Source: Aequorivita sp. CIP111184
Lineage (GTDB): Bacteria; Bacteroidota; Bacteroidia; Flavobacteriales; Flavobacteriaceae
Direction of reading: 5' to 3'
Length of the DNA: 64,000 bases
Assembly (NCBI RefSeq): GCF_900489465.1
Contig: NZ_UEFQ01000019.1
Location: 62,001 to 126,000 of the forward strand
Below, in pieces: positions 28,738 through 47,989 of the stretch. The notes beneath the pieces are model-generated. The model worked only from the letters and a program-made list of their open reading frames with translations. It ran no database searches and was not told the origin of the DNA. Positions within the stretch are counted from its first letter, which is position 1. Every line of letters starts with the position of its first letter. Both the position numbers and the translations under genes were made by a program.

Positions 28738-31700
28738 TTAGAAACTAACATCCAAACCTACTTGGATTGATTTGGTGTTTGGATAGCTATACAATGTTGC
28801 TTCACCCGGTGCTACTGCATCTGCAAAAGAAATAGTTTCTCCAGATGAAAGACCTACTTCAGGATCACCCCAGAATTTTGTAAAGGTCAAAAGGTTTTGT
28901 CCTTGTGCATAAATTCTTAAAGAGCTTATTGGAGTTTTTTCTAAATATTTGTTCGGGAAACTATATGATAACGTTACATTACGCATACGGATATAATCTC
29001 CTTTTTCTAGCCATCTGTCTGAATTTCCTGAAACAGTTGCATCGTCTGCAGCATAAATTGGACTAGGAAGTACTCCAGTGTCTCCAGGTTGTTGCCAATA
29101 ATTGAAAGCATTTGTAGCTTGATTATCTGCAATTGCTAAACCATCAGATTCACGATCAGAACGAACAAAGTTATTGATCCAGTTTCCAGCTTTGAAAACA
29201 AAATCTGTACGAAGACCAAATCCTTTATATGTGATGTTTGAGAAAAATCCACCTTCTTTATCAGCAATGGTTGATTTTCCTTGAAATACACGGTTGTCAT
29301 TTTCATCTGTTGGAAGGTCTGAAGCAAAATAAGTGTTGCCATCAGCACCATAGAATAAAGAACGTCCAGTTCCAGGATCTACACCAGCATAACGTATTAA
29401 AAAATGCTCATTAATTTTTCTTCCCTCACTATAACGAATATTAAATGCTGTTGTTGGAGTAACATCTTCTCCATCAGGTAAAGAAACAACTTCTGTATCT
29501 AGGAAGATAATATTTCCACCCAAAGTCCAAGTAAAATCAGGACTTCTGAAAATATCAGCTTTTAATGAAATTTCAAGACCTTTATTTTGAATTTCTCCAA
29601 GGTTTCCAGCAATACCTTTTACATTAGTTGGGTCAATTATACCTGCCTCATAAGCTGTTGGAATTGGAAAAAGAAGATCACTAGTGTTTCTAATAAAATA
29701 ATCAGACACCAAACTAACTCTTTTATTGAACATATTAAGTTCTAAACCAACGTTATATGTTTCAGTTGTTTCCCACTGTAATTCTGGATTTGCTACACGA
29801 GCTGGAATAGTACTAGATCCACCTGGGTATGAACCAAAGTCTACAGTACCCTGAGAGGCATAACGGTTAATACCCGTTCTGTTACCTACAGTTCCATAAG
29901 CAGCTCTAATCTTCAAGTCATTTACTGCGTCAATTGCAAAGAAATCTTCTTTAGCAATGTTCCACCCAAGACTTCCACTGTAGAAAGTTCCGAATCTTAC
30001 ATCAGTACCAAAGTTAGAAGAACCATCACGACGAACGGAAGCAGAAAGAAGATATTTTTCTTTATAGTCATAATCTGCAAATGCTCCGTAAGAAACTAAT
30101 GTTAATCTGCTTCTGTTAGTGAAACCATCATCAAGAGTAGCGGCGTTGCTTTGAGTTGTTAACAATGCTGATGGGAAACCTTTACTTCTTACAAAAGCAC
30201 GGTTAAACTCATTCATGTTGTATTCATATAGACCCAAAACGTTTAAGCTGTGATTGTTTTTCTTTAAATTATAAACCAAACGGTTACTTACCGTGAAATC
30301 TAATCTGTGTTGTTGGTCATCAAATTTATTTCCTGTTGGATTATCAGCACCTTCTAAAATCACGTCCAATATTCCACCTGGCTTAGAATAGCTCTCTCGT
30401 CTAGTTGCACCCCAGTTAACGGCAACGTTAAAACCGTAACTCCAGTTTTTGCTGAATGTTACTACTGCGTCTACACTACCAATTGTTTGGTTGTCAATAT
30501 CTTCTGAAGGCTCAGATAATAAAGCTCCACGAATAGGAAAGCCTGTATGGGTAGGGTTGTAGATAGGGTTTCCGTTATCATCAACTTGTGTAGTTCCGTC
30601 TTCGTTAAGTAAAAACTCAGTTTCGTATGCGTTGTAATCAAGTATTCCACGGAATGGGTTTTGAGTATTGTTTCTATCGCGAGGTTCGTCGCTCATAGAT
30701 CGGGAGTAACCAACGTTAACACCAACAGAAAGCCATTCTTTTGCGTCGAAATTTACATTTAAACGTGTTCCTAATCTTTCGAAACCATCAATATTATCAA
30801 TGATACCTGTGTTTCTATCGTTTGATACAGAAAAATAATAATCTACTTTGTCTGCACCGCCAGAGATAGCTACACTGTTGTTCTGAATTATACCATCTTT
30901 TAAAATAGTGTCACTCCAGTCTATTTCTCTGTCTAAAAGTTGTTGACGTTCTGGAGAACCAGGTTGTGTAGTTACTCCAGGTAAACCTGCAGCACCACTA
31001 ACACCTAATGCATAAAGCTCTGCTTCATATTGCATTTTTTCAGATGCATTCATCATAGTGTAATTTGGGTTTATCATAGAAGAAACCCCATATCTAGAAC
31101 TAAAACGGATTACAGCATCTTTATTTCTATTACCATTTTTGGTTGTAATTACAACTACACCGTTTGCCCCACGCGACCCGTAACGAGCAGTAGTAGCGGC
31201 ATCTTTTAAAATGGTAATGTTCTCAATGTCTTCATTGGGAATGTTTGCAAGATCTTGTTCTCTAATTGGAGCGCCATCCACAATATAAAGTGGAGAAGAT
31301 GCACCACCAACAAGAGATCCTGTTCCACGAATACGAACAAAAGCTCCTTGACCTGGCTTACCGTTGGCTGCAGTTACCTGCACACCCGCGGCTTTTCCTT
31401 GCAGCATATTGTCTATACTGGTTGTTGGAGCCATTTGGGAAAGTTCTGCAGCTGAAATTGAAACAACTGCCGAAGTTTGTACCGTTTGGTTTCTTGTAGA
31501 ATACCCAGTAACAACAACTTCTTCTAAAGCAGCAGCATCTGGCTGCAATGAAACGTTGATAGTATTCTGAGATCCTACTTTTACTTCCTTGGCGCTGAAA
31601 CCTACATAACTAAAAGCAATGGTCTGTCCCACATTTGCAGAGACGGTAAAATTTCCGTCAAAATCTGTCTGTGTTCCAGAACTTGTGCCCTTAATAATAA

Positions 31701-31830
31701 CGTTTGCACCAGGCAATGGCAGACCTGTGTCGTCCGTCACCGTACCTGTAATAGTTTTTTGCTGCGCGAAGGTAAGCTGCACAACTAACGCTAATAATAG
31801 CGTTAAAATTCCACTAAACTTTGTTCTCAT
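28738..31830 (-). CDS. SusC/RagA family TonB-dependent outer membrane transporter
   Basis: 1030 residues. A signal peptide (about 1-22, ending LTFAQ) precedes a CarboxypepD_reg-like beta-sandwich (about 25-110, ITGTVTDDTGLPLPGANV). The TonB-box region and plug follow (about 110-225), with LQGKAAGVQV, VRIRGTGSL and the SusC-typical PLYIVDGAPI. The remainder is the 22-stranded barrel, ending in the aromatic strand SIQVGLDVSF. With the downstream SusD it imports an unknown oligomer across the outer membrane using TonB energy. The set has its own terminator and no neighbouring degradative enzyme or sigma/anti-sigma pair. Confidence 0.95.
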   Translation of the reverse strand: MRTKFSGILTLLLALVVQLTFAQQKTITGTVTDDTGLPLPGANVIIKGTSSGTQTDFDGNFTVSANVGQTIAFSYVGFSAKEVKVGSQNTINVSLQPDAAALEEVVVTGYSTRNQTVQTSAVVSISAAELSQMAPTTSIDNMLQGKAAGVQVTAANGKPGQGAFVRIRGTGSLVGGASSPLYIVDGAPIREQDLANIPNEDIENITILKDAATTARYGSRGANGVVVITTKNGNRNKDAVIRFSSRYGVSSMINPNYTMMNASEKMQYEAELYALGVSGAAGLPGVTTQPGSPERQQLLDREIDWSDTILKDGIIQNNSVAISGGADKVDYYFSVSNDRNTGIIDNIDGFERLGTRLNVNFDAKEWLSVGVNVGYSRSMSDEPRDRNNTQNPFRGILDYNAYETEFLLNEDGTTQVDDNGNPIYNPTHTGFPIRGALLSEPSEDIDNQTIGSVDAVVTFSKNWSYGFNVAVNWGATRRESYSKPGGILDVILEGADNPTGNKFDDQQHRLDFTVSNRLVYNLKKNNHSLNVLGLYEYNMNEFNRAFVRSKGFPSALLTTQSNAATLDDGFTNRSRLTLVSYGAFADYDYKEKYLLSASVRRDGSSNFGTDVRFGTFYSGSLGWNIAKEDFFAIDAVNDLKIRAAYGTVGNRTGINRYASQGTVDFGSYPGGSSTIPARVANPELQWETTETYNVGLELNMFNKRVSLVSDYFIRNTSDLLFPIPTAYEAGIIDPTNVKGIAGNLGEIQNKGLEISLKADIFRSPDFTWTLGGNIIFLDTEVVSLPDGEDVTPTTAFNIRYSEGRKINEHFLIRYAGVDPGTGRSLFYGADGNTYFASDLPTDENDNRVFQGKSTIADKEGGFFSNITYKGFGLRTDFVFKAGNWINNFVRSDRESDGLAIADNQATNAFNYWQQPGDTGVLPSPIYAADDATVSGNSDRWLEKGDYIRMRNVTLSYSFPNKYLEKTPISSLRIYAQGQNLLTFTKFWGDPEVGLSSGETISFADAVAPGEATLYSYPNTKSIQVGLDVSF

Positions 31831-31859
31831 TTTTATAAATTATTTGAATTAGCCAACGG

Positions 31860-31891
31860 CAAAAATCATAATAAAAAGTTAATTACACAAG
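31860..31891 (-). promoter_or_regulatory. Possible promoter of the SusC/SusD operon
   Basis: On the minus strand a -33-like CTTG (31888-31891) is followed after 20 bases by GATTTTTG (31860-31867), one mismatch from TAnnTTTG. The susC ATG is 30 bases further on. Confidence 0.4.
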
Positions 31892-31949
31892 TATTTAATC
31901 CCAAAATTTAAGTTTTATTTAGCAATGAAGATTGTTTTAGTGCGATACT

Positions 31950-33647
31950 TTAAAATTTTGAAGAAACACTTATGTGAATTTTAGTGTTTGAGAGTGTGAA
32001 GGTTTGATTTTCTGAATTACCGTTTGCTACATTAAACCGAAATAAGCCTGCCTTTGTCTTTAATCCTAGGCCCAGTCCGAAGCTATATAGTTTTTGTTTC
32101 AATGATATAGTTTGGTTCTCAAAATATCCTACATCTATTATGCTATGAAGGTATACCTCGTCTGTGAATTGGTATCTGTATTCAGTGTTAATCACAGAGA
32201 AAAGTGATGCGTCTATACTATTCTCATTAAAGCCCCGTATGCTGTTTATACCGCCAAACCTGAATAATTCATTTACAAGATAGGTGTCGCTGATAAGGAC
32301 GCTCGTTGTATTCTGCACGAAGATTGAATTCTTATAATTGAGGTTAAAAATGTTATTAAGGGTGGTTTCAAAAAATAATTGATCTTCGCTGGTGCTTTCT
32401 TTTTCACGGGAACCAATACCTGTGTCAAGTAATATTTTAGTTTTTATTGGAAAGAGTTTTTTGTTTTGTGATTTTACATAGGTAGCTCCCAAAATAAAAA
32501 ACTTCGATTTAAAATCTTCAATGGGCGTACCCGCAATTACTTCGTCAAGCAAATTGCTGGAGTCATACCCTTTATAGCCGATATAGGTTGTTGACTTTGG
32601 GTTTATCTGGTATGTAGCCCGAATTTCTTGTGCGGCAGTTATGAAAGTGCTGTCTCGTTTAAAAATTTTCAATTCGCCACTTAATCCAAATGGGCTCTTC
32701 AGTAAATAAGGTAAAGTTATTTTGGCCCTAAAGTTTACTTGTTCCTGTCCATCTGCCTTATAGTTTATTAAAAGTTGCTCTCCATAATTTAGGTTGTTGT
32801 TCAGTTCCAGATTGAGATAGCCATTTAGTTCCAGCTTTTGGGTTTCTTCGTTGGTGGCAAAACCCAGTATACCGTCAAAAAGATTATTGTTCTGCTTTTC
32901 CAAATAAAAATAGACAGTAGTAGAGTCTTTTCTAAAAAGAGCTTCGGGAGGTTTAATTGTGTTTACAAATCCTAAACTGTTTATATTTTCGTTTTGTTCC
33001 ACCAATTTTTTTTGATTGAAAAGCTTTCTTTTTTTAACTCCTGCATAATATTTTAAAAATGATCTTGGAAACTTATCATATCCTTTTATAGCAATTGAGT
33101 CTATGGTGCGTATGTTTCCATTTTCAACAAATAGAGTTGCATTTAAGTTTCCTGCCTCATCTTTTTCAAGTTCTGTCAATTTTAGCTTGGCAAAGGCATT
33201 TCCTTTTTGGTTGCGAAGTGTAGTTAGCTTCCTCAGTGAAGCTGGAATTGTTTCAAAGGGGAGGATAAAATATTCATCGCTAATTTCAGAGGAAACAATT
33301 TGGAGCTCTTTTTTGCTGAAATCTACTTCAGAATAATAAACTTTAATTACGCTATATTTTTTTCCAAGGAAGAATTCTCCAACATAGCTACTATCATTTT
33401 TTTTTTGAAGTTGAAGCAGTTCGCTTTCAATAAACCCCATGCGTTGGAACTTTAGATGAAGCGTGTCTGTTTCTTTTTGTAGTGTAGCAAGGTCTTTAAA
33501 AGATTTTTGCATTAATAAAGAATCCTTTATTCCTTGGGAAATAGGTTTTTCTGCCTGTATGGAAAGCGTAAGTTCTTGCGCGTATATTCCGAAGAAAAAG
33601 CAGTTGTATATATTAAGGTATAGAAAAATGTACAGAATTTTTTTCAA
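31950..33647 (-). CDS. Omp85/TamA-like outer membrane protein
   Basis: 565 residues beginning with TTG and a Sec signal peptide (MKKILYIFLYLNIYNCFFFG then IYAQE). The region about 40-250 shows POTRA-like beta-alpha-alpha-beta units, including IDSIAIKGYDKFPRSFLKYY, which is a typical last-POTRA block. The C-terminal half is a barrel with the Omp85 motif FGGINSIRGF near residue 480, ending in Phe (SVSSKF). BamA homologues are longer (over 750 residues), so a TamA- or FhaC-like role in membrane protein insertion or export fits better. It stands alone, with no TamB-like partner in the window. Confidence 0.82.
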   Translation of the reverse strand: MKKILYIFLYLNIYNCFFFGIYAQELTLSIQAEKPISQGIKDSLLMQKSFKDLATLQKETDTLHLKFQRMGFIESELLQLQKKNDSSYVGEFFLGKKYSVIKVYYSEVDFSKKELQIVSSEISDEYFILPFETIPASLRKLTTLRNQKGNAFAKLKLTELEKDEAGNLNATLFVENGNIRTIDSIAIKGYDKFPRSFLKYYAGVKKRKLFNQKKLVEQNENINSLGFVNTIKPPEALFRKDSTTVYFYLEKQNNNLFDGILGFATNEETQKLELNGYLNLELNNNLNYGEQLLINYKADGQEQVNFRAKITLPYLLKSPFGLSGELKIFKRDSTFITAAQEIRATYQINPKSTTYIGYKGYDSSNLLDEVIAGTPIEDFKSKFFILGATYVKSQNKKLFPIKTKILLDTGIGSREKESTSEDQLFFETTLNNIFNLNYKNSIFVQNTTSVLISDTYLVNELFRFGGINSIRGFNENSIDASLFSVINTEYRYQFTDEVYLHSIIDVGYFENQTISLKQKLYSFGLGLGLKTKAGLFRFNVANGNSENQTFTLSNTKIHISVSSKF

Positions 33648-33749
33648 ACGGGGCGATAATTAGCATTGTAAAACTAACGTTTCAAGTTGCCATTTCATAT
33701 TCAAAATAAAAAAATTATGAAAGTATGCTGAAAATTAATTCAGTAAGGT

Positions 33750-33780
33750 TTGATTAGTGGAAAAATATTTCTACATTTGC
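33750..33780 (+). promoter_or_regulatory. Promoter of the ribosomal protein supercluster
   Basis: TTTG (33750-33753), a 19-base spacer and TACATTTG (33773-33780) form a perfect Bacteroidota TTTG-N19-TAnnTTTG promoter. Transcription should begin about 5 bases later. The rpsL ATG is at 33835. Confidence 0.85.
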
Positions 33781-33783
33781 ATC

Positions 33784-33799
33784 CCCTAAAAATAGGGGT
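33784..33799 (+). promoter_or_regulatory. Stem-loop at the predicted 5' end of the rpsL mRNA
   Basis: CCCCTA and TAGGGG enclose an AAAA loop, followed by a T-rich stretch. It starts within a few bases of the expected transcription start, so it may cap the mRNA 5' end or act as a short attenuator. Confidence 0.55.
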
Positions 33800-33834
33800 G
33801 TTTTATTTTTAAACATTAATAATACATATTTTAT

Positions 33835-34209
33835 ATGCCAACAATTTCACAATTAGTACGTAAAGGAAGGACCAAAATAACCAAGAAGAGTAAATCGGTT
33901 GCTTTGGATTCGTGCCCACAACGTCGTGGTGTTTGTACGCGTGTATATACTACTACACCTAAGAAACCAAACTCTGCTATGCGTAAAGTAGCAAGGGTTA
34001 GGCTTACAAACGGTAAAGAGGTAAACGCATACATCCCAGGCGAAGGTCACAATCTCCAAGAGCACTCGATAGTATTGGTTAGAGGTGGAAGGGTAAAAGA
34101 TTTGCCAGGAGTTAGGTATCACATTGTTCGTGGAGCTTTAGACACCGCAGGTGTTGCAGGCCGCACACAACGTAGATCTAAGTACGGAGCAAAACGCCCA
34201 AAGAAGTAA
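33835..34209 (+). CDS. rpsL: Ribosomal protein S12
   Basis: A 124-residue 30S protein at the decoding centre. The streptomycin-site motif [15 protein letters not shown] is at about residues 43-57, and the loop [12 protein letters not shown] at about 86-97 carries the conserved Asp that is often methylthiolated. Lysine at the classic streptomycin-resistance position in TPKKPNS is the sensitive form. It is first in a str-type arrangement, rpsL-rpsG-fusA-rpsJ, with a strong promoter upstream. Confidence 0.98.
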
Positions 34210-34220
34210 AAATGAAAACG

Positions 34221-34254
34221 GGTTAAGAATAAATTGAAAAATTGATTCTCAACC
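34221..34254 (+). promoter_or_regulatory. Long hairpin in the rpsL-rpsG spacer (candidate S7 site)
   Basis: GGTT, AGAAT and AATT pair with AATT, ATTCT and AACC: 13 base pairs with two single mismatches, closed by a GAAA tetraloop. It lies 16 bases before the rpsG ATG. In E. coli S7 represses translation by binding structure in the same spacer, so a similar role is plausible here. Confidence 0.55.
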
Positions 34255-34269
34255 ATTAACAAAAAACAA

Positions 34270-34746
34270 ATGAGAAAAAGACAGGCCAAAAAAAGACCAC
34301 TTTTACCAGATCCAAGGTTTAACGACCAGTTGGTTACGCGTTTCGTAAACAACATGATGTGGGATGGAAAAAAGAGTGTCGCCTTCAAAGTTTTCTATGA
34401 TGCTATTGACATTGTAGATGAAAAGAAACAAGACGAGGAAAAAACTGCGTTGGAGCTTTGGAAAGATGCACTTTCCAATGTTATGCCTCACGTAGAGGTG
34501 CGTAGTCGTAGAGTTGGTGGGGCAACCTTCCAAATTCCTATGCAAATACGCCCAGACCGTAAAATTGCAACTGCAATGAAATGGTTAATTACCTTTTCAA
34601 GAAAAAGAAACGAGAAATCCATGGCTGCAAAACTTGCAGGTGAGATTCTTGCTGCTGCCAAAGAAGAAGGCGCTGCTGTAAAGAAACGTATGGATACTCA
34701 CAAAATGGCAGAAGCTAACAAAGCATTCTCACATTTCAGATTCTAA
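34270..34746 (+). CDS. rpsG: Ribosomal protein S7
   Basis: A 158-residue primary assembly protein of the 30S head. The basic N-terminus MRKRQAKKR, the central block [24 protein letters not shown] near residues 76-100, and the C-terminal [17 protein letters not shown]-like end (here [15 protein letters not shown]) are characteristic. S7 is the usual autoregulator of str operons; a hairpin precedes its start. It is separated from rpsL by 60 bases, the widest gap in this part, and is followed after 3 bases by fusA. Confidence 0.98.
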
Positions 34747-34749
34747 AAA

Positions 34750-36885
34750 ATGGCACAAAGAGATTTAAAATACACAAGAAATATTGGGATTGCCGCGCAC
34801 ATTGACGCCGGTAAGACTACAACTACAGAGCGTATCCTTTTTTATACTGGGGTAAGCCATAAAATTGGTGAGGTTCACGATGGAGCTGCAACCATGGACT
34901 GGATGGAGCAAGAGCAGGAGCGTGGTATTACTATTACTTCAGCTGCTACCACTTGTACTTGGAAGTTTCCAATGGAAAATGCCGAAGTGCTTCCTGAAAC
35001 GCATGAATACAATTTCAACATTATTGACACTCCCGGCCACGTTGATTTTACCGTAGAGGTAAACCGTTCGCTGCGTGTTCTTGATGGCTTGGTGTTTCTT
35101 TTTAGTGCAGTTGATGGTGTTGAGCCACAATCTGAGACTAACTGGAGGCTTGCGGATAACTATAAAGTGCCTCGTATTGGTTTCGTTAACAAAATGGACC
35201 GTCAAGGAGCAAACTTTATGGAGGTTTGTCAGCAAGTAAAAGATATGTTGGGTTCCAATGCGGTGCCTATTGTATTGAATATTGGTGAAGAAGATACCTT
35301 TAAAGGAATTGTTGATCTTGTAAAGAACCGTGCTGTAATTTGGCATGAAGATTCTTTCGGAGCAACCTTTGATGTTGTTGAAATTCCTGAAGACCTTAAA
35401 GCAGAAGCTAAATTATTACGTGGTAAACTTATTGAAGAAGTTGCTGCTTATGATGAAAACTTGCTTGAAAAGTATATGGAAGATGAAGATTCAATTACTG
35501 AAGATGAAGTGCATGCTGCGCTTCGTGCTGCGGTAATGGATATGAGTATCATTCCAATGGTATGTGGTTCTTCATTTAAAAACAAAGGCGTTCAGTTTCT
35601 TTTAGATGCTGTTTGTCGTTACTTACCTTCTCCAATGGATAAAGAAGGTATTATCGGGGTTAACCCAGATACTGAAAAAGAAGAAATTCGCAAGCCAGAT
35701 GTTACTGCTCCTTTTGCAGCATTAGCATTTAAAATTGCAACAGATCCTTTCGTGGGTCGTTTGGCTTTCTTCCGTGTTTATTCAGGGCGTTTGGATGCGG
35801 GTTCTTATATTTTGAACAATCGTTCAGGAAAAAAAGAGCGTATTTCCCGTATCTACCAAATGCATTCCAATAAGCAAAATGCTATCGATTTTATTGAAGC
35901 TGGAGATATTGGAGCGGCAGTTGGTTTTAAAGATATTAAGACTGGAGATACCATGTCTGATGAAAAACACCCAATTGTTTTAGAGAGTATGGACTTCCCT
36001 GATCCCGTTATTGGTATCGCGGTGGAGCCTAAAACAAAAGTAGATGTTGATAAATTGGGTATGGCTTTATCAAAACTTGCCGAAGAAGACCCAACATTCC
36101 AAGTACGTACAGACGAAGCTTCTGGACAGACTATTATTTCCGGAATGGGAGAGCTTCACTTAGATATTATTGTAGACCGTTTGCGTCGCGAATTTAAAGT
36201 TGAAGTAAACCAAGGTCAGCCACAGGTTGAGTATAAAGAAGCTATTACAAAAGTTGCTGATCACCGAGAAGTTTACAAAAAACAATCTGGTGGTCGTGGT
36301 AAATTTGCTGATATTGTTTTCACACTTGAACCAGCTGAAGAAGGTAAAATTGGTTTGGAATTCGTAAACGCTGTAAAAGGTGGTAACGTGCCAAAAGAAT
36401 TTATCCCTTCTGTTGAAAAAGGTTTCAAACAAGCAATGGTTAATGGCCCGCTTGCAGGTTTTGAAGTTGACAGTATGAAAGTTACTTTAAAAGATGGATC
36501 TTTCCACCCTGTGGATTCTGATGCGCTATCTTTTGAGCTAGCTGCCAAAATTGGTTTCAAAGAAGTTGCCAAAAAAGCAGGAGCAGTAATACTTGAACCT
36601 ATTATGAAACTTGAGGCACTTACGCCAGAAGAATATATGGGTGATATTGTTGGTGACCTTAACCGTCGTCGTGGAACAATCACTAATATGAGTGACCGCG
36701 CCGGAGCAAAAGTTATCAAGGCTGAAGTGCCACTTTCTGAAATGTTTGGTTACGTAACCACATTAAGAACATTGTCTTCAGGTCGTGCAACTTCAACTAT
36801 GGAATTTTCACATTATGCTGAAACACCTTCTAATATTTCAGAAAGTGTAATAGCAGCAGCAAGAGGAACCGCTAACGTAAATTAA
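34750..36885 (+). CDS. fusA: Elongation factor G
   Basis: The translational GTPase that drives translocation, 711 residues. G-domain motifs are [15 protein letters not shown] (G1) near residue 16, the switch I region [25 protein letters not shown] (G3) near 96, and NKMDRQGA (G4) near 150. Domains II to V follow in normal order, with the domain IV block [16 protein letters not shown]. The length and motifs are those of a canonical EF-G. tuf, which follows fusA in proteobacterial str operons, is absent; rpsJ comes next after 8 bases. Confidence 0.98.
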
Positions 36886-36893
36886 TTTCAGCA

Positions 36894-37199
36894 ATGAGTC
36901 AAAAAATAAGAATAAAACTAAAATCTTACGATCACAATTTAGTGGACAAATCTGCTGAAAAAATCGTTAAGACTGTAAAGAGTACTGGAGCTGTAGTTAC
37001 AGGACCAATTCCTTTGCCAACACACAAAAAAATCTTTACCGTATTGCGTTCTCCACACGTGAACAAGAAAAGTAGAGAGCAATTCCAACTAAGTTCTTAC
37101 AAAAGACTTTTGGATATCTACAGTTCTTCTTCAAAAACAATTGATGCTCTAATGAAATTAGAGTTGCCAAGTGGAGTAGAAGTAGAGATTAAAGTATAG
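36894..37199 (+). CDS. rpsJ: Ribosomal protein S10
   Basis: A 101-residue 30S protein that also serves as NusE in antitermination. Signature blocks are [14 protein letters not shown] at the N-terminus, [31 protein letters not shown] in the middle (residues about 35-65), and the C-terminal [11 protein letters not shown]. It ends the rpsL-fusA group and is separated from rplC by a 180-base spacer holding three hairpins, one shaped like an intrinsic terminator. Confidence 0.97.
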
Positions 37200-37202
37200 T
37201 GT

Positions 37203-37283
37203 CATTTCCGCGAAGGCGGAAATCTTATCAGGAGGAACGGAATGTTCCTTTATAAAATGTCCTGAGCTTGTAAGCAAGGGAAA
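37203..37283 (+). repeat. Dispersed-type intergenic repeats in the rpsJ-rplC spacer
   Basis: ATTTCCGC-GAAG-GCGGAAAT (37204-37223) is a perfect 8-base-pair hairpin of the GTCATTyCnGCGAAgGC type common in Bacteroidota intergenic DNA. AGGAAC/GTTCCT (37233-37249) is a second hairpin. TCCTGAGCTTG (37260-37270) recalls the CCCTGAGCTTGTC repeat also present at 51158. Confidence 0.6.
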
Positions 37284-37303
37284 AACGGAAACAAAATAAT
37301 ATT

Positions 37304-37335
37304 CAGGGTTGAATTTATTTTGACCCTGTTTTTTT
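37304..37335 (+). terminator. Intrinsic terminator/attenuator between rpsJ and rplC
   Basis: A 10-base-pair stem (CAGGGTTGAA with TTTGACCCTG, two G-U pairs) has a 5-base loop and is followed directly by seven T residues (37329-37335). It lies 45 bases before the rplC ATG. This is the form of a Rho-independent terminator inside the S10 gene series. Confidence 0.7.
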
Positions 37336-37379
37336 GAATAGAAATATTAAAATAAGTAATAATAACTAAATAATTAAAT

Positions 37380-37991
37380 ATGTCTGGGTTAATTGGAAGA
37401 AAGATAGGGATGACCAGCATCTTTGACGAGAACGGAAAGAATATTCCGTGTACCGTTATTGAAGCAGGACCCTGTGTTGTCACCCAAGTCAGAACCATAG
37501 AGGTTGACGGGTACAATGCTCTTCAACTTGGTTTCGATGACAAGAAGACTGTAACTAAAGCTGCTGAAGGGCACGCAAAAAAAGCAGGAACCGTTGCAAA
37601 ACGCAAAGTTGTTGAATTCAAGGGATTTGAAGAAAAATACAAATTAGGTGACACAATTACTGTGGAGCATTTTATTGAAGGTGAGTTCGTAGATATTGCG
37701 GGTACATCTAAAGGTAAAGGTTTCCAAGGGGTTGTTAAACGTCACGGTTTTGGTGGTGTGGGGCAAGCGACTCACGGTCAGCACAACCGTTTACGTGCGC
37801 CAGGTTCTATTGGAGCTGCTTCTTATCCTGCGAGAGTATTCAAAGGAATGAGAATGGCAGGCCAAATGGGGAACGAAAGAGTAAAAGTTGAAAATTTAAG
37901 AGTTTTGAAAGTAGTTCCTGAAAAGAATCTACTTGTGGTAAAAGGAGCAGTTCCTGGCCATAAAAACGCTTATGTAATGATCGAGAAATAA
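37380..37991 (+). CDS. rplC: Ribosomal protein L3
   Basis: A 203-residue early-assembly 50S protein near the peptidyl transferase centre. The N-terminal [19 protein letters not shown] and the glutamine loop [29 protein letters not shown] (about residues 115-143), which reaches into the ribosome core, identify it. Its last base is shared with the rplD ATG. It begins the S10-type block after the rpsJ-rplC spacer. Confidence 0.97.
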
Positions 37992-38620
37992 TGAAGGTAG
38001 CTGTATTAGACATAAACGGAAAAGACACAGGTCGGAAAGTTGAACTTTCTGCAGATGTGTTCGGAATAGAGCCTAACAATCACGCAGTTTATCTTGATGT
38101 GAAGCAATATCTTGCCAATCAAAGACAAGGAACTCACAAAGCTAAAGAACGTGCTGAAATTTCTGGTTCTACCAGAAAGATAAAGAAACAAAAAGGAACT
38201 GGTACTGCTCGTGCGGGTAGCATCAAATCTGGTGTATTTAAAGGTGGTGGTAGAATGTTTGGACCACGTCCACGTAGCTACTCTTTTAAATTGAACAAAA
38301 ACCTAAAGCGTTTGGCACGTAAATCTGCTCTATCGATGAAGGCTAACGATAAAGCCATTTTTGTAATGGAAGACCTTAATTTTGACGCTCCAAAAACCAA
38401 GAATTTTACCTCGGTTTTGAAGAGTTTAGGTCTTGATGACAAAAAATCTTTATTTGTGTTGGGAGACTTAAATAATAATGTATATTTGTCCTCTCGCAAT
38501 TTGAAAGGTACTGAAGTTATAACTAACTCACAATTAAGTACTTATAAAATTATGAATGCAAACAGTTTAGTGCTGTTTGAAGGTTCTTTGGAAGGAATTG
38601 AAACAAACTTAAGTAAATAG
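37991..38620 (+). CDS. rplD: Ribosomal protein L4
   Basis: A 209-residue 50S protein with an extended loop lining the exit tunnel: [26 protein letters not shown], spanning about residues 60-85. The globular part has the [14 protein letters not shown] helix. In E. coli L4 represses its operon by binding the S10 leader and stimulating termination; here a terminator-like hairpin lies upstream of rplC. The ATG overlaps the rplC stop by one base. Confidence 0.97.
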
Positions 38621-38627
38621 AAACAAG

Positions 38628-38918
38628 ATGAACATCTTAATTAAACCTATAATTACGGAAAAAGCTACTAAGGATGCTGAAGACAAAAATGTTTTTGGCT
38701 TTGTAGTTAACCCAAAGGCGAATAAGGTAGAAATCAAGAAAGCGGTGGAAGCTGCTTACGGAGTTTCTGTTGAAAAAGTTCGCACAATGAATGTCCGCCC
38801 TGATAGGAAGACCCGTTATACAAAAACAGGTGTCCAGACTGGTAAAACGAATGCTTACAAAAAAGCAATTGTACAGGTGGCGGAAGGTGATACAATAGAT
38901 TTTTACAGTAACATCTAA
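38628..38918 (+). CDS. rplW: Ribosomal protein L23
   Basis: A 96-residue 50S protein at the tunnel exit, where trigger factor and SRP dock. Typical blocks are IIKPIITEKAT at the N-terminus (here LIKPIITEKATKDAED), FVVNPKANKVEIKKAVEAAYGV near residues 25-46, and KTGVQTGKTNAYKKAIV. It lies between rplD and rplB with 7- and 26-base gaps. Confidence 0.97.
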   Translation: MNILIKPIITEKATKDAEDKNVFGFVVNPKANKVEIKKAVEAAYGVSVEKVRTMNVRPDRKTRYTKTGVQTGKTNAYKKAIVQVAEGDTIDFYSNI

Positions 38919-38944
38919 GGTAACTTAGATCTAATTAGACACAA

Positions 38945-39769
38945 ATGTCAGTAAGAAAATTAAAACCAATCACCCCGGGTCAGCGTTTTAGGGTTGTAAA
39001 TGGTTTTGACGCCATTACAACCGATAAGCCGGAGAAGTCTTTACTTGCTCCGAACAAAAGATCTGGTGGTAGAAACAGTCAAGGTAAAATGACCATGCGC
39101 TACATAGGTGGTGGTCATAAAAAGAAATATCGAATTATCGATTTTAAACGTGACAAAGCAGGTGTTCCTGCTACTGTTGCAAGTATACAATACGATCCAA
39201 ACCGTACTGCGTTTATCGCACTTTTGAACTATCAAGATGGTGAAAAACGATATGTAATTGCGCAAAACGGATTACAAGTTGGGCAAAATATCCTATCCGG
39301 TGATGCAGTAGCTCCCGAGATTGGAAACGCAATGTCACTTTCAGCTATTCCATTAGGTACTATTATTTCTTGCATCGAGCTTCGTCCCGGTCAAGGAGCT
39401 ATTATGGCTCGTAGTGCTGGTGCATTCGCGCAGCTTATGGCTCGTGATGGAAAATATGCTACCGTTAAACTTCCCTCAGGTGAAACCCGATTAATTTTGG
39501 TAAACTGTATGGCTACCATTGGTGCTGTATCAAACAGTGACCACCAATTATTAGTTTCTGGTAAGGCTGGTAGAAGTAGATGGTTAGGTAGAAGACCACG
39601 TACAAGACCAGTTGTGATGAACCCTGTTGATCACCCAATGGGTGGTGGTGAAGGTAAATCTTCTGGAGGTCATCCACGTTCTAGAAAAGGTATCCCTGCA
39701 AAAGGTTACAGAACCCGTACTAAAACGAAAGCGAGTAATAAATATATCTTAGAACGAAGAAAGAAATAA
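38945..39769 (+). CDS. rplB: Ribosomal protein L2
   Basis: A 274-residue primary 23S rRNA-binding protein needed for peptidyl transferase activity. The N-terminal [15 protein letters not shown], the central [18 protein letters not shown], and the C-terminal [21 protein letters not shown] block with the conserved His (about residues 220-240) are diagnostic. Full length and in standard order. Confidence 0.98.
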
Positions 39770-39772
39770 GTT

Positions 39773-40051
39773 ATGGCAAGATCGTTAAAAAAAGGACCGT
39801 TCGTTCATTACAAACTAGACAAGAAAGTTCAACAAAATGTTGATGATAATAAGAAGACTGTAATCAAGACTTGGTCACGTGCTTCTATGATTACACCAGA
39901 TTTTGTTGGTCAAACCATCGCTGTACACAACGGGCGCCAATTTGTTCCTGTGTATGTAACAGAAAACATGGTTGGGCATAAACTAGGAGAATTTTCACCT
40001 ACAAGATCATTCCGTGGTCACGCAGGTGCTAAAAACAAAGGTAAAAAATAA
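39773..40051 (+). CDS. rpsS: Ribosomal protein S19
   Basis: A 92-residue 30S head protein. [15 protein letters not shown] at the start, [39 protein letters not shown] in the middle and the basic tail AGAKNKGKK are typical. It lies 3 bases after rplB and 6 before rplV. Confidence 0.97.
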
Positions 40052-40057
40052 TAGGCC

Positions 40058-40468
40058 ATGGGAGTTCGTAAAAGAGAAAGAGCAGAAGCAATCAAGGAAG
40101 CAAAGAAGACAATGTACTTTGCTAAATTGAACAATTGCCCCACTTCACCAAGAAAAATGCGTTTAATGGCAGACTTGGTTCGTGGTGAGAAAATAGACAA
40201 AGCACTTAATATTTTGAAGTTTAGTTCAAAAGAATCTTCACGCAAATTGGAGAAACTACTTTTGTCTGCCATTAATAACTGGCAACAAAAGAACGAAGAC
40301 GCTTCATTGGAAGATGCAGATCTTTTTGTTAAGGAAATCCGTGTGGATGGTGGAACAATGTTGAAAAGACTTCGTCCAGCACCACAAGGCCGCGCACACA
40401 GAATTAGAAAGCGCTCCAACCACGTAACACTGGTATTGGCAGCTAACGATAACACACAAAGCAATTAA
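40058..40468 (+). CDS. rplV: Ribosomal protein L22
   Basis: A 136-residue 50S protein with a beta-hairpin at the exit tunnel constriction. The core has [20 protein letters not shown] near residues 24-43 and the hairpin region [25 protein letters not shown] near 105-130, where macrolide resistance mutations occur in other bacteria. A short N-terminal extension ([17 protein letters not shown]) precedes the domain. Confidence 0.97.
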
Positions 40469-40472
40469 TTAA

Positions 40473-41201
40473 ATGGGACAGAAGACAAATCCAATCGGAA
40501 ATCGCCTGGGTATCATTAGAGGTTGGGAATCCAACTGGTACGGAGGCAACGACTACGGCGATAAACTTGCCGAAGACGACAAGATCAGGAAATACATCCA
40601 CGCTCGTTTAAGTAAAGCTAGTGTGAGTAGAGTAATTATTGAGCGTACGCTTAAGCTTGTAACCGTTACTATAACCACTGCCCGTCCCGGTATCATTATC
40701 GGTAAAGGTGGTCAGGAAGTAGACAAGCTAAAAGAAGAGCTTAAAAAAATTACAGATAAAGAGGTACAGATCAACATTCACGAGATCAAAAGACCTGAGC
40801 TTGATGCATTTTTGGTAGCTGCAAGTATTGCACGCCAAATTGAAAGCCGTATTTCATACCGTCGTGCTATTAAAATGGCAATCGCGGCAACAATGCGAAT
40901 GAATGCTGAAGGTATTAAGGTACAGATTTCTGGACGTTTGAACGGAGCTGAAATGGCTCGTTCAGAATCTTACAAAGAAGGTCGTATTCCTTTATCAACT
41001 TTTAGAGCCGATATTGACTACGCTTTAGTTGAGGCACACACTACCTATGGTAGATTGGGTGTTAAAGTATGGATTATGAAAGGCGAAGTATATGGAAAAA
41101 GAGAGCTTTCCCCACTTGTTGGTTTATCAACTGGCAAAAAAGGTGGTGGTAAAGGAGCTCCAGCAGGACGCGGTGGCAACAAAGCACGTCGCAGAAAGTA
41201 A
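40473..41201 (+). CDS. rpsC: Ribosomal protein S3
   Basis: A 242-residue 30S protein at the mRNA entry site. It starts [20 protein letters not shown]; the KH domain has [22 protein letters not shown] near residues 68-90 (GxxG is GKGG), and the C-terminal domain includes [24 protein letters not shown]. The C-terminal tail is rich in Gly, Lys and Arg. Standard position between rplV and rplP. Confidence 0.98.
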
Positions 41202-41219
41202 TTTTTTAAATAGAAGAAA

Positions 41220-41639
41220 ATGTTACAACCTAAAAGAACAAAGTACCGTAAACAAATGAAAGGCCGTATGAAAGGCGATGCCGGTCGTGGCAATCAGCTA
41301 GCGTACGGAACCTTCGGTATAAAATCGTTGGAATCAGAATTTCTTACAGCAAGACAAATTGAAGCTGCTCGTATTGCCGCTACTCGATTTATGAAAAGAG
41401 AAGGTTCTATCTGGATTATGATTTTTCCCGATAAGCCAATTACCAAAAAACCTCTTGAAGTACGTATGGGTAAAGGTAAAGGAGCTGTAGAATATTACGC
41501 TGCTGTAGTAAAACCAGGAAGAATGCTTTTCGAAGTATCTGGTGTTACCCTTGAAACAGCAAAAGAAGCTTTACGCCTTGCGGCACAAAAGCTTCCCGTT
41601 AAAACTAAATTTGTAATGTCTCGGGATTTCCAAGCATAA
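41220..41639 (+). CDS. rplP: Ribosomal protein L16
   Basis: A 139-residue 50S protein near the A site. [19 protein letters not shown] at the start, [24 protein letters not shown] near residues 32-55, and [19 protein letters not shown] near 82-100 (conserved Arg just before, often hydroxylated in other species) identify it. Confidence 0.97.
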
Positions 41640-41650
41640 TTTTTTGAACG

Positions 41651-41842
41651 ATGAAACAATCAGAAATTAAAAAAGCATCAACGGCTGAACTTCAGGAAGC
41701 TTTCGCTGACTCTAGAAAAGCTTATTCAGACCTTAAAATGGCTCATACCATTTCGCCGTTGGAAAATCCAATTCAACTAAGATCCCAAAGAAGGGTGATA
41801 GCAAGATTAGCGACGGAACTAACTAATAGAGAAGTGCAATAA
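41651..41842 (+). CDS. rpmC: Ribosomal protein L29
   Basis: A 63-residue two-helix 50S protein near the tunnel exit. The pattern MKQSEIKKASTAELQEAF, then LKMAHTISPLENPIQLRSQRRVIARL, is that of L29. It lies between rplP and rpsQ in the universal order. Confidence 0.95.
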   Translation: MKQSEIKKASTAELQEAFADSRKAYSDLKMAHTISPLENPIQLRSQRRVIARLATELTNREVQ

Positions 41843-41857
41843 CTGTACAGCTGAAAG

Positions 41858-42121
41858 ATGGAAGAAATTAAAAGAAACTTAAGAAAAGAACGTATAGGTG
41901 TAGTAACCAGCAACAAAATGGACAAGTCCATTGTAGTTGCAGAGGTGAAAAAAGTAAAGCATCCTATGTACGGAAAGTTCGTTTTGAAAACGAAAAAATA
42001 CGTAGCACACGACGAGACAAACAACTGTAACGAAGGTGATACTGTAAAGATCATGGAAACAAGACCTTTGAGTAAAACCAAATGTTGGAGATTAGTAGAA
42101 ATAATTGAAAGAGCGAAGTAA
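41858..42121 (+). CDS. rpsQ: Ribosomal protein S17
   Basis: An 87-residue OB-fold 30S protein. Signature parts are [41 protein letters not shown] near residues 35-53, and the end [22 protein letters not shown]. It is followed after 2 bases by rplN. Confidence 0.97.
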
Positions 42122-42123
42122 TT

Positions 42124-42492
42124 ATGTTACAACAAGAATCAAGACTCAAAGTCGCAGATAATACCGGTGCTAAGGAAGTACTTACTATTCGTGTATTAGG
42201 CGGTACTAAAAGAAGGTATGCTTCAATTGGTGATAAAATTGTAGTTTCTGTAAAAGAAGCCACTCCAAACGGAAGTATTAAAAAAGGAGCAGTTTCTACA
42301 GCAGTTGTAGTTCGTACTGTTAAGGAAATAAGAAGACCTGACGGTTCTTACATCCGCTTTGACGACAACGCTTGTGTACTTTTGAACGCCCAAGGCGAGA
42401 TGAGAGGAACACGTGTTTTCGGACCAGTAGCAAGAGAGCTTCGTGACAAGCAATTTATGAAAATAGTATCATTGGCACCAGAGGTGCTTTAA
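42124..42492 (+). CDS. rplN: Ribosomal protein L14
   Basis: A 122-residue 50S protein at the subunit interface. It starts [19 protein letters not shown] and carries the conserved [18 protein letters not shown] near residues 70-88 and [16 protein letters not shown] near 96-112. The next gene starts 1 base after its stop. Confidence 0.98.
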
Positions 42493-42493
42493 T

Positions 42494-42820
42494 ATGAAAA
42501 CTAAGATGACAAAGCTTAAAATAAAATCAGGCGATACAGTAGTAGTTACTGCCGGGGACCACAAAGGTTCTGAAGGTAAAGTGATGAAAATATTCCTTGA
42601 CAAAAACAAAGCAATCGTAGAAGGAGTAAATATGGTTTCAAAACATGAGAAGCCAAGTGCAAAAAACCCACAAGGTGGAATTGCAAAGAAAGAAGCTCCT
42701 ATCCATATTTCAAACCTTTCGTTGGTTGATCCAAAATCTGGAAAAGCTACACGTGTAGGGTATAAAACCGAAGATGGTAAAAAAGTACGGTTTTCAAAAC
42801 AATCGAATCAAGCAATATAG
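42494..42820 (+). CDS. rplX: Ribosomal protein L24
   Basis: A 108-residue 50S assembly initiator with an N-terminal KOW motif: [25 protein letters not shown] at about residues 10-34, then [25 protein letters not shown] second ATG at 42506 would give a 104-residue protein; I keep 42494 because it directly follows the rplN stop. Confidence 0.96.
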
Positions 42821-42822
42821 TT

Positions 42823-43374
42823 ATGGCATATTCACCAAGACTTAAAGAAGAGTATAAAAGCAAAGTGATCAATTCACTTACTGACGAATTTGGTTACAAA
42901 AACGTCATGCAGGTACCTAAATTAGAGCGTATCGTTGTTTCCCGCGGAGTGGGTGCAGCAGTAGCTGATAAGAAACTTATTGACTATTCGGTTGATGAGT
43001 TTACAAAAATAACTGGGCAAAAAGCGATTTCAACAAACTCTAAAAAAGACGTTGCAAACTTCAAACTTCGTAAAGGCATGCCAATTGGTGTGAAAGTTAC
43101 GTTGCGTGGAGAGCGTATGTATGAATTTTTGGATAGATTGGTAACTTCAGCTTTGCCAAGGGTACGTGACTTTAACGGAATTAAAGCAACCGGTTTTGAC
43201 GGAAGAGGAAATTACTCTTTGGGAATTACTGAGCAAATTATCTTCCCAGAAATCGATATCGATAAAGTGAAGAAAATTGAAGGGATGAATATTACATTCA
43301 TTACTTCTGCAGCTACTGATAAAGAAGCGAAATCATTACTACAAGAATTGGGATTACCCTTTAAAAAGAACTAA
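42823..43374 (+). CDS. rplE: Ribosomal protein L5
   Basis: A 183-residue 5S rRNA-binding protein of the 50S central protuberance. Blocks [28 protein letters not shown] at the N-terminus, [25 protein letters not shown] near residues 66-90, and [19 protein letters not shown] near 127-145 are characteristic. Confidence 0.98.
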
Positions 43375-43377
43375 GAG

Positions 43378-43647
43378 ATGGCTAAAGAATCAATGAAAGC
43401 CCGCGAGGTTAAGAGACAAAAAACGGTATTGAAGTATGCTGCCAAACGTAAAGCTTTAAAAGAAGCTGGTGATTGGGAAGGTTTACAAAAACTACCAAAA
43501 AATGCCTCACCAGTACGTTTGCACAACCGTTGCAAATTAACCGGAAGACCAAGAGGGTATATGAGAACTTTTGGAATTTCACGTGTAACTTTCCGTGAAA
43601 TGGCAAATTCAGGGTTAATTCCAGGAGTGCGCAAAGCATCTTGGTAA
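43378..43647 (+). CDS. rpsN: Ribosomal protein S14 (zinc-free type)
   Basis: An 89-residue 30S protein of the long, zinc-independent type: [15 protein letters not shown], then [34 protein letters not shown]. Only one Cys (NRCKLTG) remains where zinc-ribbon S14 proteins have four. It is followed by an 85-base spacer with a hairpin before rpsH. Confidence 0.97.
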
Positions 43648-43682
43648 GAACATATTTACTGTTCAAAAGAAAAAGTATAAAC

Positions 43683-43713
43683 TGGTCGTAGGTTTGGAAT
43701 AGTCCAAAAACCA
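43683..43713 (+). promoter_or_regulatory. Hairpin in the rpsN-rpsH spacer (candidate S8 site)
   Basis: TTTGGA and TCCAAA pair around ATAG (43693-43708). An outer TGGT/ACCA pair (43683-43686, 43710-43713) is separated by an asymmetric internal loop. It lies 20 bases before the rpsH ATG. S8 is the known repressor of spc-type operons, but binding here is only inferred. Confidence 0.4.
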
Positions 43714-43732
43714 CTTCCGAAAATTGAAATAA

Positions 43733-44134
43733 ATGAATACAGATCCAATTTCAGATTATCTAACACGTGTTAGAAATGCTGCGAAAGCCGGACATCGCGT
43801 AGTAGAGATTCCAGCTTCAAACCTTAAAAAGGAGATTACAAAGATCCTTTTTGATCAAGGTTACATTTTAAGCTACAAATTTGATGACGAAAGTACCCCG
43901 CAAGGGATCATCAAAATTGCGTTGAAATACGACAAGCTTACTAAAGAATCAGTGATCAAGAAAATTCAAAGAATAAGTAAACCAGGTTTACGTAAATACG
44001 CAGGTTCAACAGAACTTCCTCGTATTCTGAACGGTTTGGGTATTGCCATAGTTTCTACTTCTTCAGGAGTTATGACCGGCAAACAAGCCAAGGAACAGAA
44101 TGTAGGTGGCGAAGTATTGTGTTACGTTTACTAA
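43733..44134 (+). CDS. rpsH: Ribosomal protein S8
   Basis: A 133-residue primary 16S rRNA-binding protein. It begins MNTDPISDYLTRVRNAAKAGH; the C-terminal RNA-binding part has RILNGLGIAIVSTSSGVMTGKQAKEQNVGGEVLCYVY, the universal S8 ending. In E. coli S8 also represses spc operon translation. A hairpin in the spacer just upstream could serve such control. Confidence 0.98.
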   Translation: MNTDPISDYLTRVRNAAKAGHRVVEIPASNLKKEITKILFDQGYILSYKFDDESTPQGIIKIALKYDKLTKESVIKKIQRISKPGLRKYAGSTELPRILNGLGIAIVSTSSGVMTGKQAKEQNVGGEVLCYVY

Positions 44135-44149
44135 AAAATAGACAAAGAA

Positions 44150-44692
44150 ATGTCAAGAATAGGTAAAAACCCGGTAGCAATCCCACAAGGAGTTACAGTT
44201 GATGTAAAAGACAATGTAATTACCGTAAAAGGAAAATTAGGCGAGTTAACACAGCAATATGCTGATGTAACGGTGAAAGTTGAAGACGGACAAGTATTGG
44301 TTGAACGCCCTTCAGATTCGAAAGATCATACCGCTAAGCACGGTCTTTATAGATCTTTAATCAATAATATGATTGAAGGTGTAAGCAACGGATGGACCAA
44401 GCAATTGGAATTGGTAGGTGTGGGTTACCGCGCTAGCAACCAAGGACAAAAATTGGATTTGGCTTTAGGATATTCTCACAACATTGTTTTGGAAATTGCT
44501 CCAGAAGTAAAAGTTGAAACGGTATCTGATAAAGGTAAAAATCCAATCGTAAAATTAACTTCACACGATAAGCAATTGGTAGGACAAGTAGCGGCAAAAA
44601 TCCGTGGCTTCCGTAGACCAGAACCTTACAAAGGAAAAGGTATTAAATTTGTAGGTGAACAATTAAGAAGAAAAGCAGGTAAATCTGCATAA
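44150..44692 (+). CDS. rplF: Ribosomal protein L6
   Basis: A 180-residue 50S protein with two repeated alpha/beta domains. It starts [17 protein letters not shown]; the second domain has [25 protein letters not shown] near residues 85-110, and the C-terminal [26 protein letters not shown] is diagnostic. Confidence 0.98.
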
Positions 44693-44703
44693 CAAATAGA
44701 GTT

Positions 44704-45060
44704 ATGGCATTATCAAAGTACGAAAGAAGAGAGCGCTTGCGCATGAGGATCAGAAAAACGGTAGAGGGGACCGAAAGTCGCCCACGTTTAGCTGTTTTCC
44801 GCAGCAACAAAGAAATATACGCTCAAATTATTGACGATGTAAATGGAAAGACCATTACCGCTGCATCTTCAAGAGATAAAGACATTGACGCTTCAAAAGT
44901 AAACAAAGTTGAAGCGGCAAAATTGGTAGGAAAAGCAATCGCAGAAAAAGCTGTTAAAGCAGGTGTTGAAGCCATTGCTTTTGATAGAGGCGGTTACTTA
45001 TACCACGGAAGAGTAAAATCATTAGCTGAAGGTGCACGAGAAGGTGGCCTTAAATTCTAA
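44704..45060 (+). CDS. rplR: Ribosomal protein L18
   Basis: A 118-residue 5S rRNA-binding protein. A basic N-terminus ([19 protein letters not shown]) precedes [20 protein letters not shown] near residues 27-46, and the C-terminal [26 protein letters not shown] is the family ending. Confidence 0.97.
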
Positions 45061-45068
45061 GTCATATT

Positions 45069-45593: not shown

Positions 45594-45605
45594 AATATCA
45601 GAGCG

Positions 45606-45785: not shown

Positions 45786-45798
45786 GGACACATTAAAA

Positions 45799-46251: not shown

Positions 46252-46263
46252 CAAAAGCTAAGG

Positions 46264-47607: not shown

Positions 47608-47609
47608 TT

Positions 47610-47825: not shown

Positions 47826-47869
47826 TACAACGGACCTCACGGTTCATTGAAATATAAAAACAGAAACAG

Positions 47870-47986: not shown

Positions 47987-47989
47987 GTT

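Follow-up and report, generated by a model that had tools for sequence, protein, structure and literature searches.

A conserved RNA element between rpsJ and rplC of the Flavobacteriaceae as a candidate transcription attenuator of the ribosomal operon

The spacer between rpsJ and rplC of Aequorivita sp. CIP111184 contains a hairpin which, as the comparison of related sequences indicates, forms the 3' portion of an RNA element that is conserved and about 80 nt long. The element spans positions 37257-37335 of the window, i.e. of the whole 64,000-nucleotide stretch of DNA that was analysed, and its parts follow each other in the order AUGUCC, hairpin P1, GGAAAAACGG, antiterminator hairpin P2 and terminator (Table 1). 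We favour, with moderate confidence, the reading that the element is a transcription attenuator specific to the family, through which a ribosomal protein would limit the expression of its own operon. An earlier note on this DNA had pointed out the terminator-shaped hairpin; the conserved RNA on its 5' side (37257-37303) was absent from that account. The element itself seems to be undescribed, and the kind to which it belongs, the ribosomal protein leaders and attenuators, is already known.

Table 1. Features of the rpsJ-rplC element and of its surroundings (positions in the window).
Feature	Position	Strand	Remark
Promoter motif TTTG..TACATTTG before rpsL	33749..33779	+	consensus match; presumed source of read-through
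rpsJ (S10)	36894..37199	+	last gene 5' of the element
AUGUCC, near-invariant 5' block	37257..37262	+	ATGTCC in 146/149 leaders
P1 hairpin	37260..37281	+	covariation
GGAAAAACGG, near-invariant block	37279..37288	+	intact in 137/149 leaders
P2 antiterminator hairpin	37292..37322	+	37292-37299 with 37315-37322; 37301-37305 with 37310-37314
P3 pairing	last 8 bases of GGAAAAACGG (37279..37288) with 37326-37333	+	predicted
Terminator hairpin	37304..37328	+	10 pairs, loop of 5
U-tract (T7)	37329..37335	+	directly 3' of the stem
rplC (L3)	37380..37991	+	first gene 3' of the element
rplD (L4)	37991..38620	+	ligand candidate by analogy

The gene order in the window is rpsL, rpsG, fusA, rpsJ, spacer, rplC, rplD, rplW, and the identification of the genes bears out the order of rpsJ and rplC given in the earlier note. 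Ten frames after rplW were tested; nine of them are rplB, rpsS, rpsC, rplP, rpsQ, rplN, secY, rpsD and rpoA, and one had no match at the cut-off used. Further S10, spc and alpha genes are located behind rplW. The spacer is 180 bases long, and its 5' half (37200-37255), which lies outside the element, differs among relatives. A palindrome, GTCATTTCCGCGAAGGCGGAAATC, stands directly 3' of rpsJ (37200-37224), similar palindromes are found at the same spot in several relatives, and matches with 2-3 mismatches occur at three other sites of the genome (backward control: 1), so that it looks like a small repeated palindrome.

The hairpin before rplC is built as CAGGGTTGAA / TTTAT / TTTGACCCTG, with four G-C and two G-U among its ten pairs. 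The stem of ten pairs and the run of seven T are where the earlier note had placed them and pair as it had described, i.e. a G+C-bearing stem is followed at once by a U-tract at 37304-37335, which is the form of an intrinsic terminator. The fold of 37290-37345 has an energy of -13.2 kcal/mol (z -2.8), and 3 of 200 shuffles were as stable. A strict scan (stem of at least 10 pairs, at least 4 G-C, 7 of 8 T) found this hairpin as the sole site between 30000 and 48000. In the entire 64 kb the same scan found three distinct sites, as compared to a mean of 0.03 and a maximum of 1 in 60 shuffled windows; the other two lie at 51087-51089 (+) and 26805-26806 (-). A loose scan of 30000-48000 gave no excess (15 found, 13.9 expected).

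The element was found by comparing the rpsJ-rplC spacers of 27 genomes of the window's own genus with those of the 28 nearest other genera. From 37257 on, all 55 spacers have in common AUGUC, a hairpin, GAAAAACGG, an A-rich strand and the terminator, and both AUGUC and GAAAAACGG are invariant throughout. In the larger set of 149 leaders, on which the conservation values of the two blocks in Table 1 are based, two genomes (L192 and L193) are counted twice. The outer helix of the terminator is paired in 99.5% of the cells of the 55 sequences, with two-sided changes in 6 of 7 pairs. P1 shows two-sided changes in 6 of 8 pairs and standard pairs in 79.5% of the cells, a value that is so low because the middle of P1 is Watson-Crick paired (UCAAC-GAUG-GUUGG) in some sequences and forms a G.A-type internal loop (GAGC..GCGA) in others; of the 55 sequences, 20, 34 and 32 depart from standard pairing at the three central pairs, respectively. 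P1 and the terminator taken together are 90.5% paired and have two-sided changes in 12 of 18 pairs (slid controls: 33-60% paired), and it should be borne in mind that the relatedness of the sequences inflates all covariation counts and permutation tests given here. A further measure of covariation in P1, the number of further pair types, was not above shuffles (413 of 500). We also considered a leader peptide and rejected it, as there is no conserved short open reading frame: the frames that start at the AUG have from 2 to 55 codons, the commonest length being 2 codons (40 of 149 leaders).

The antiterminator P2 is well supported by the comparison of the sequences. Its pairing, as predicted, joins an upstream AAAAUAA or AAAAUAC to UUAUUUU or GUAUUUU just 5' of the 3' arm of the terminator, and UUCA to UGAA. 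P2 and the terminator have one strand in common, so that they are mutually exclusive, and both carry compensatory changes; in other words, the spacer holds an antiterminator that excludes the terminator and that has been kept by compensatory changes, which is the pattern of an attenuator. P2 is paired in 92.4% of the cells (slid controls: 37-61%) with two-sided changes in 7 of 13 pairs, and examples of arms that co-vary are AAAAAUUA/UAAUUUUU, AAACAU/AUGUUU and AAAACAAU/AUUGUUUU. When arms were exchanged between genomes, the score fell from 15.52 for the own arms to 13.46 (sd 0.18) for those of other genomes (116 distinct combinations), and the largest value of 300 permutations was 13.94. The scored set consists of 141 leaders, 8 of the 149 hairpins having been excluded for bulges or an N, and in this comparison as in that of the energies below L193, which repeats L121, is counted twice. 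The text pattern that was used for the 149 leaders missed four that are contained in A1 or R1 (L056, L102, L112 and L179). In RNA folds ending before CCCUG, P2 was seen by eye in 51 of 55 cases, and in the other four the cut was misplaced (L053, L055, L056 and L058). A pseudoknot between P2 and the terminator was discarded, since the arms overlap and would leave no loop free to cross the helix.

The last part of the folding model is P3, in which AAAAACGG would pair with CUGUUUUU, i.e. with the U-tract and the last part of the stem. A separate search for repeats gave the pairing in its entirety as a single inverted repeat of 19 bases (37281-37299 with 37315-37333, 79% complementary). As the 5' strand of P3 is invariable, no covariation was found for P3 across the leaders; the share of paired cells is 86.8%, as compared to 37-71% in slid versions. 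At least 5 pairs of P3 can form in 73 of the 141 leaders and fewer than 5 in the other 68. Hiding of the U-tract by P3, as we infer from the model, would fit the genus of the window best.

The element might act after transcription, as a site of binding or cleavage or as the 3' end of a small RNA from the 3' region of rpsJ. A stable intercistronic structure would be in keeping with this, and an end of this sort would remain whenever an RNA is terminated there; nevertheless, two mutually exclusive hairpins and, for the most part, a U-tract are conserved, which fits the control of termination better, and we regard a post-transcriptional role as very improbable. At least 5 T are found in the 8 bases after the hairpin in 112 of the 141 leaders with a scored hairpin, and fewer than 5 in 29.

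The balance between the two hairpins was followed by equilibrium folds of the window's RNA at growing lengths. The predicted probability of P2 is 0.97 with the end of the RNA at 37322-37325, the terminator reaches 0.96 with the end at 37328, P2 is back at 0.83 at 37335, and with ends at 37337-37340 the balance is roughly even (0.46 to 0.52 at 37340). P2 returns by 37335 because AAAAACGG pairs with CUGUUUUU in these folds. With 8 bases of the tract included, the calculated energies are -20.8 kcal/mol for the P2 state and -20.2 kcal/mol for the terminator state. For the 141 leaders the median advantage of the terminator is 4.8 kcal/mol before the U-tract (10th-90th percentile 1.8 to 10.5) and 4.9 kcal/mol after it (-0.8 to 11.2). 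The terminator is thus clearly the more stable structure in most of the family, and therefore the even balance in the window is not general.

These folds bear on one of the alternatives, a partial terminator that is conserved but not regulated, in which a fixed competition between P2 and the terminator would let a constant fraction of polymerases pass and so set the ratio of the str/S10 products to the downstream ones. The switch as such needs no ligand, as P2 comes first and is displaced by the terminator in the equilibrium folds. Such a fixed rate would leave unexplained why AUGUCC and GGAAAAACGG are near-invariant and why P1 co-varies, and we consider it unlikely, if still the most plausible of the competing explanations. 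The earlier note had reasoned that a terminator at this place must be leaky, regulated or followed by a new promoter. Of these, regulation gains from the conserved, covarying antiterminator that goes with the attenuator reading, and a new promoter is disfavoured, as no Bacteroidota promoter motif follows the hairpin.

The search for promoters was based on the Bacteroidota consensus (PMC9723704). The + strand of 33601-38000 contains just two copies of TAnnTTTG, one at 33772, before rpsL and with an upstream TTTG, and one at 36300, inside fusA. The rpsJ-rplC spacer of the window is thus free of Bacteroidota promoter motifs, and the statement of the earlier note that TAnnTTTG is missing after the hairpin holds. 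Among the named loci, TAnnTTTG lies within 110 bases of rpsL in 61 of 61, with an upstream TTTG in 58. A small hairpin, CCCCTAAAAATAGGGG, directly follows the rpsL promoter motif in the window (33749-33798), and in many named loci a similar short hairpin of varying sequence (e.g. CCCTCTAAAGAGAGGG) was seen by eye at the same place. This hairpin of the rpsL 5' end, which is perhaps a stabiliser of the mRNA, probably accounts for the terminator-like call at 33783.

An ordinary terminator at the end of str-rpsJ, with rplC transcribed from a promoter of its own after the hairpin, would go with the strong terminator shape and with three weak sigma-70-like matches (9 of 12) at 37320-37374. These matches are at chance level, the scan of the region having given 51 where 44.8 were expected; moreover, TAnnTTTG is missing after rpsJ in the window, and an operon end gives no account of the conserved antiterminator and P1. 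In the 149 element-bearing spacers TAnnTTTG occurs in 22, as against 14.3 (sd 3.7) in shuffled ones. Inspection by eye placed 14 of these within the hairpin and the remaining 8 upstream of the element, with none located after it. The longer TAnnTTTGC is upstream of the element in 7 of the 149, i.e. where it is present in such spacers it precedes the element. We therefore give an operon-end terminator hardly any credence. The element would thus be transcribed by polymerases arriving from str or else, perhaps, in some genomes form the 5' leader of an rplC transcript, and either placement suits control of the downstream operon better than the end of an operon. A -33 pattern at the tested spacing was found in only 1 (TTTG) or 2 (TTG) of the 149, these being among the 7 with TAnnTTTGC, and since so few upstream promoter motifs have a -33 partner, our confidence in the attenuator is slightly lowered.

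The element is distributed throughout most of the family. In the own genus it was found in all 27 genomes with an rplC match (28 genomes in the set, one having no such match), and in the other genera of the family in 122 of 140, each genus being represented by one genome. The 122 are made up of 28/28 nearest genera, 89/100 and 5/12; L192 and L200, which repeat L095 and L178, were omitted from the group of 12. The family set had 149 genomes, 143 of them with an rplC match and six without, and the 140 are what is left after removing two genomes of the own genus and G150, which has no DNA before rplC. Conservation of the stem and the T-run, proposed as a check in the earlier note, is thus borne out in this majority of genera and in the T counts given above. 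The gene rpsJ is upstream of rplC in the first 55 spacers and in 110 of the 112 later ones. In 17 of the 18 genera without the element the spacer measures 2 to 93 bases, and in the remaining one (L178) it is 402 bases long. Five genomes without the element (L087, L092, L122, L212 and L217) have unrelated plain hairpins in the rpsJ-rplC spacer.

In a collection of named sequences, 115 of the 117 pattern matches listed are the element; 112 of those listed lie within 500 bases before rplC and 3 are at the end of a stretch. The two others (L245 and L255) are from outside the family, have no terminator behind them as judged by eye, and were discarded as chance matches. The titles of 80 of the 117 listed matches include the genera Aequorivita, Winogradskyella, Maribacter, Robiginitalea, Gramella, Aquimarina, Cellulophaga, Lacinutrix, Lutibacter and Kordia. 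The named sequences most closely related to the window bear the label Aequorivita (L294, with 94.0% DNA identity across rpsJ-rplD). Taken together with the 122 of 140 genera, these 115 of 117 listed matches mean that a conserved structured RNA stands consistently before ribosomal protein genes, as is characteristic of a ribosomal leader.

Outside the family and within the same order the element was found in none of the 38 genomes examined, of 77 with rplC. A search of 295 genomes of the class with model R1 gave 14 matches, of which four are family genomes with the element; since a small number of candidates is scored in each genome, weakly similar relatives could escape this search. The ten others (30-36.5 bits) have neither rpsJ nor rplC in the surrounding 1.7-3.1 kb and were rejected as chance terminators. 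The five family genomes listed as unmatched in this search are all of the genus g127. In g127 five of five genomes have no element and carry TTTG..TAnnTTTG in the same spacer. We note two other arrangements in the same order. Genomes L338-L344 of family f2 have TAnnTTTGCA upstream of rplC and then a conserved stretch ACTCATTTTAGGG..AGTATGCCTA, which is possibly a different leader. L198, L201, L202 and L204 of family f79 have a similar G+C-rich hairpin in the spacer, followed by GATGTCC or GCTGTCC and no T-run, and this hairpin may be another type of rplC leader.

Ribosomal protein leaders are usually taken to be regulated by a protein that their operon encodes (PMC7247131), and this view underlies the mechanism that we propose. 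RNA polymerase coming from the rpsL promoter would transcribe rpsL-rpsG-fusA-rpsJ and then P1. P2 would form next, with AAAAUAA..AUUCA holding the strand UGAAU..UUAUUUUG, and as CCCUG of the 3' arm emerges the terminator would compete with P2 for that strand. Where P2 wins, transcription would go on into rplC and the S10-spc-alpha genes, and where the terminator wins, it would stop after rpsJ; in the window's genus the pairing of AAAAACGG with CUGUUUUU would help P2 and hide the U-tract. One of the proteins encoded by the downstream operon, in all probability a ribosomal protein, would bind P1 together with AUGUCC and GGAAAAACGG, and its excess would lead to termination. Termination in vivo, the ligand, the ligand's being a ribosomal protein and the direction of control are all four inferred. 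L4 as the ligand is a guess from E. coli, and no result favours it over L3, L23, L2 or S8.

The attenuator may also respond to a signal that is not one of the operon's ribosomal proteins, e.g. a small molecule or ion recognized by P1 and the A-rich strand, or a general factor of elongation or antitermination that loads at P1. A small hairpin followed by a conserved A-rich strand would suit such a signal, and there is no significant likeness to rRNA, the binding of a ribosomal protein being only proposed. With strict filters and 14 scored candidates, R1 gave a single place in the genome of the window, and the pattern GTCY..GGAAAAAYGG has one further match there (L219; backward control patterns gave 1 and 3 matches). 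A single place in the genome, as far as these tools show, and the fact that nearly all listed matches stand before ribosomal genes, suit feedback by an operon product better, and a signal of another kind is in our opinion improbable, somewhat more so than a fixed rate of termination.

As to the rRNA, an unbiased two-block matrix search against the 23S rRNA gave a best score that was reached by 30 of 200 shuffles; the score of the 16S rRNA, which was not shuffled, was lower. A likeness in the genome's own 23S rRNA, AUGUCCGAGAGGGAAA, was picked out post hoc in what we take to be the H40 region near the L20 site, and the best 23S place of the unbiased search is elsewhere; the likeness is thus a weak lead. 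A more far-reaching version of the feedback reading, which we offer tentatively and would not expect to hold in full, is that an undescribed, family-wide class of ribosomal leaders splits the fused str-S10-spc-alpha unit after S10. EF-G and S10, which is also the elongation factor NusE, would escape the feedback on the ribosomal proteins encoded behind the element, presumably roughly 25 in number. In this version AAAAACGG would hide the end of the terminator stem along with the U-tract, and P1 would be read by a ribosomal protein that possibly also binds the 23S hairpin AUGUCC..GGGAAA.

In Rfam 15 no ribosomal protein leader was matched in the window at the gathering level, or around the site at a relaxed level, where six weak matches nearby were far below the cut-offs of their families. 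Our search of the literature, to which supplements and most subscription papers did not belong, found no leader before rplC in Bacteroidota. The study of premature terminators by Naville and Gautheret (2010) offers a close parallel in its rpsL-leaders. These share with the element a terminator and an alternative antiterminator before a ribosomal operon, but the gene is a different one, and rplC, rpsJ and Bacteroidetes are absent from the main text (PMC2965389).

The S10 operon of E. coli is regulated by L4-dependent attenuation (PMC10931766), and as in that leader, a terminator hairpin here precedes rplC-rplD and the rest, the feedback being proposed in our case. Unlike the E. coli leader, the element comes after rpsJ, has another sequence and structure and a clear antiterminator, and has no match in Rfam. 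The suggestion of the earlier note that the hairpin of the E. coli S10 leader had been moved downstream thus finds no support: the element neither lies before rpsJ nor resembles the described S10/L4 leader. Eckert and Weinberg (2020) give S4, S15 and S16 leaders of Flavobacteria, L13 and S4 leaders of Bacteroidia, and an L4 leader of Archaeoglobi that precedes rplC (PMC7247131). Those are likewise conserved covarying RNAs before ribosomal genes, in part of the same bacteria, but none of the 20 motifs in Table 1 of their main text is before rplC in Bacteroidota. The rpsJ motif of Peptostreptococcaceae (PMC11109978) is also a structured RNA at the S10 region and a candidate ribosomal leader; it differs in standing before rpsJ and in belonging to another phylum, and its main text has no Bacteroid-, Flavobacteri- or rplC.

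The GUCCY-hairpin motif (PMC2864571) has a name that fits GUCC(Y) plus a hairpin, and Bacteroidetes are listed for it. As compared by name and listing alone, it could be related to the element, although it is given for two phyla, Bacteroidetes and Proteobacteria, whereas the element was found in one family, and the listing of Proteobacteria speaks against a relationship. Rfam cannot decide on this, because the row of the motif in the table of that paper shows no Rfam number. The conserved 5' elements of Flavobacteriaceae named in PMC9723704 stand before pheA, hisG, ftsY, acsA, alaS and rimP, with rplC not among them, and the species of that study may lack the element.

It is little known how Bacteroidota match the supply of ribosomal proteins to that of rRNA, and in the literature searched we found no account of a control that acts on their main ribosomal operon at rplC. 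If the proposed attenuator is real, a short element would be the one point of control for most ribosomal proteins in many Flavobacteriaceae, and S10 would be outside that control, unlike in E. coli. The natural comparison would then be between the lineages that have the switch, those that have a promoter motif before the switch, and the one that has a promoter motif instead of it.
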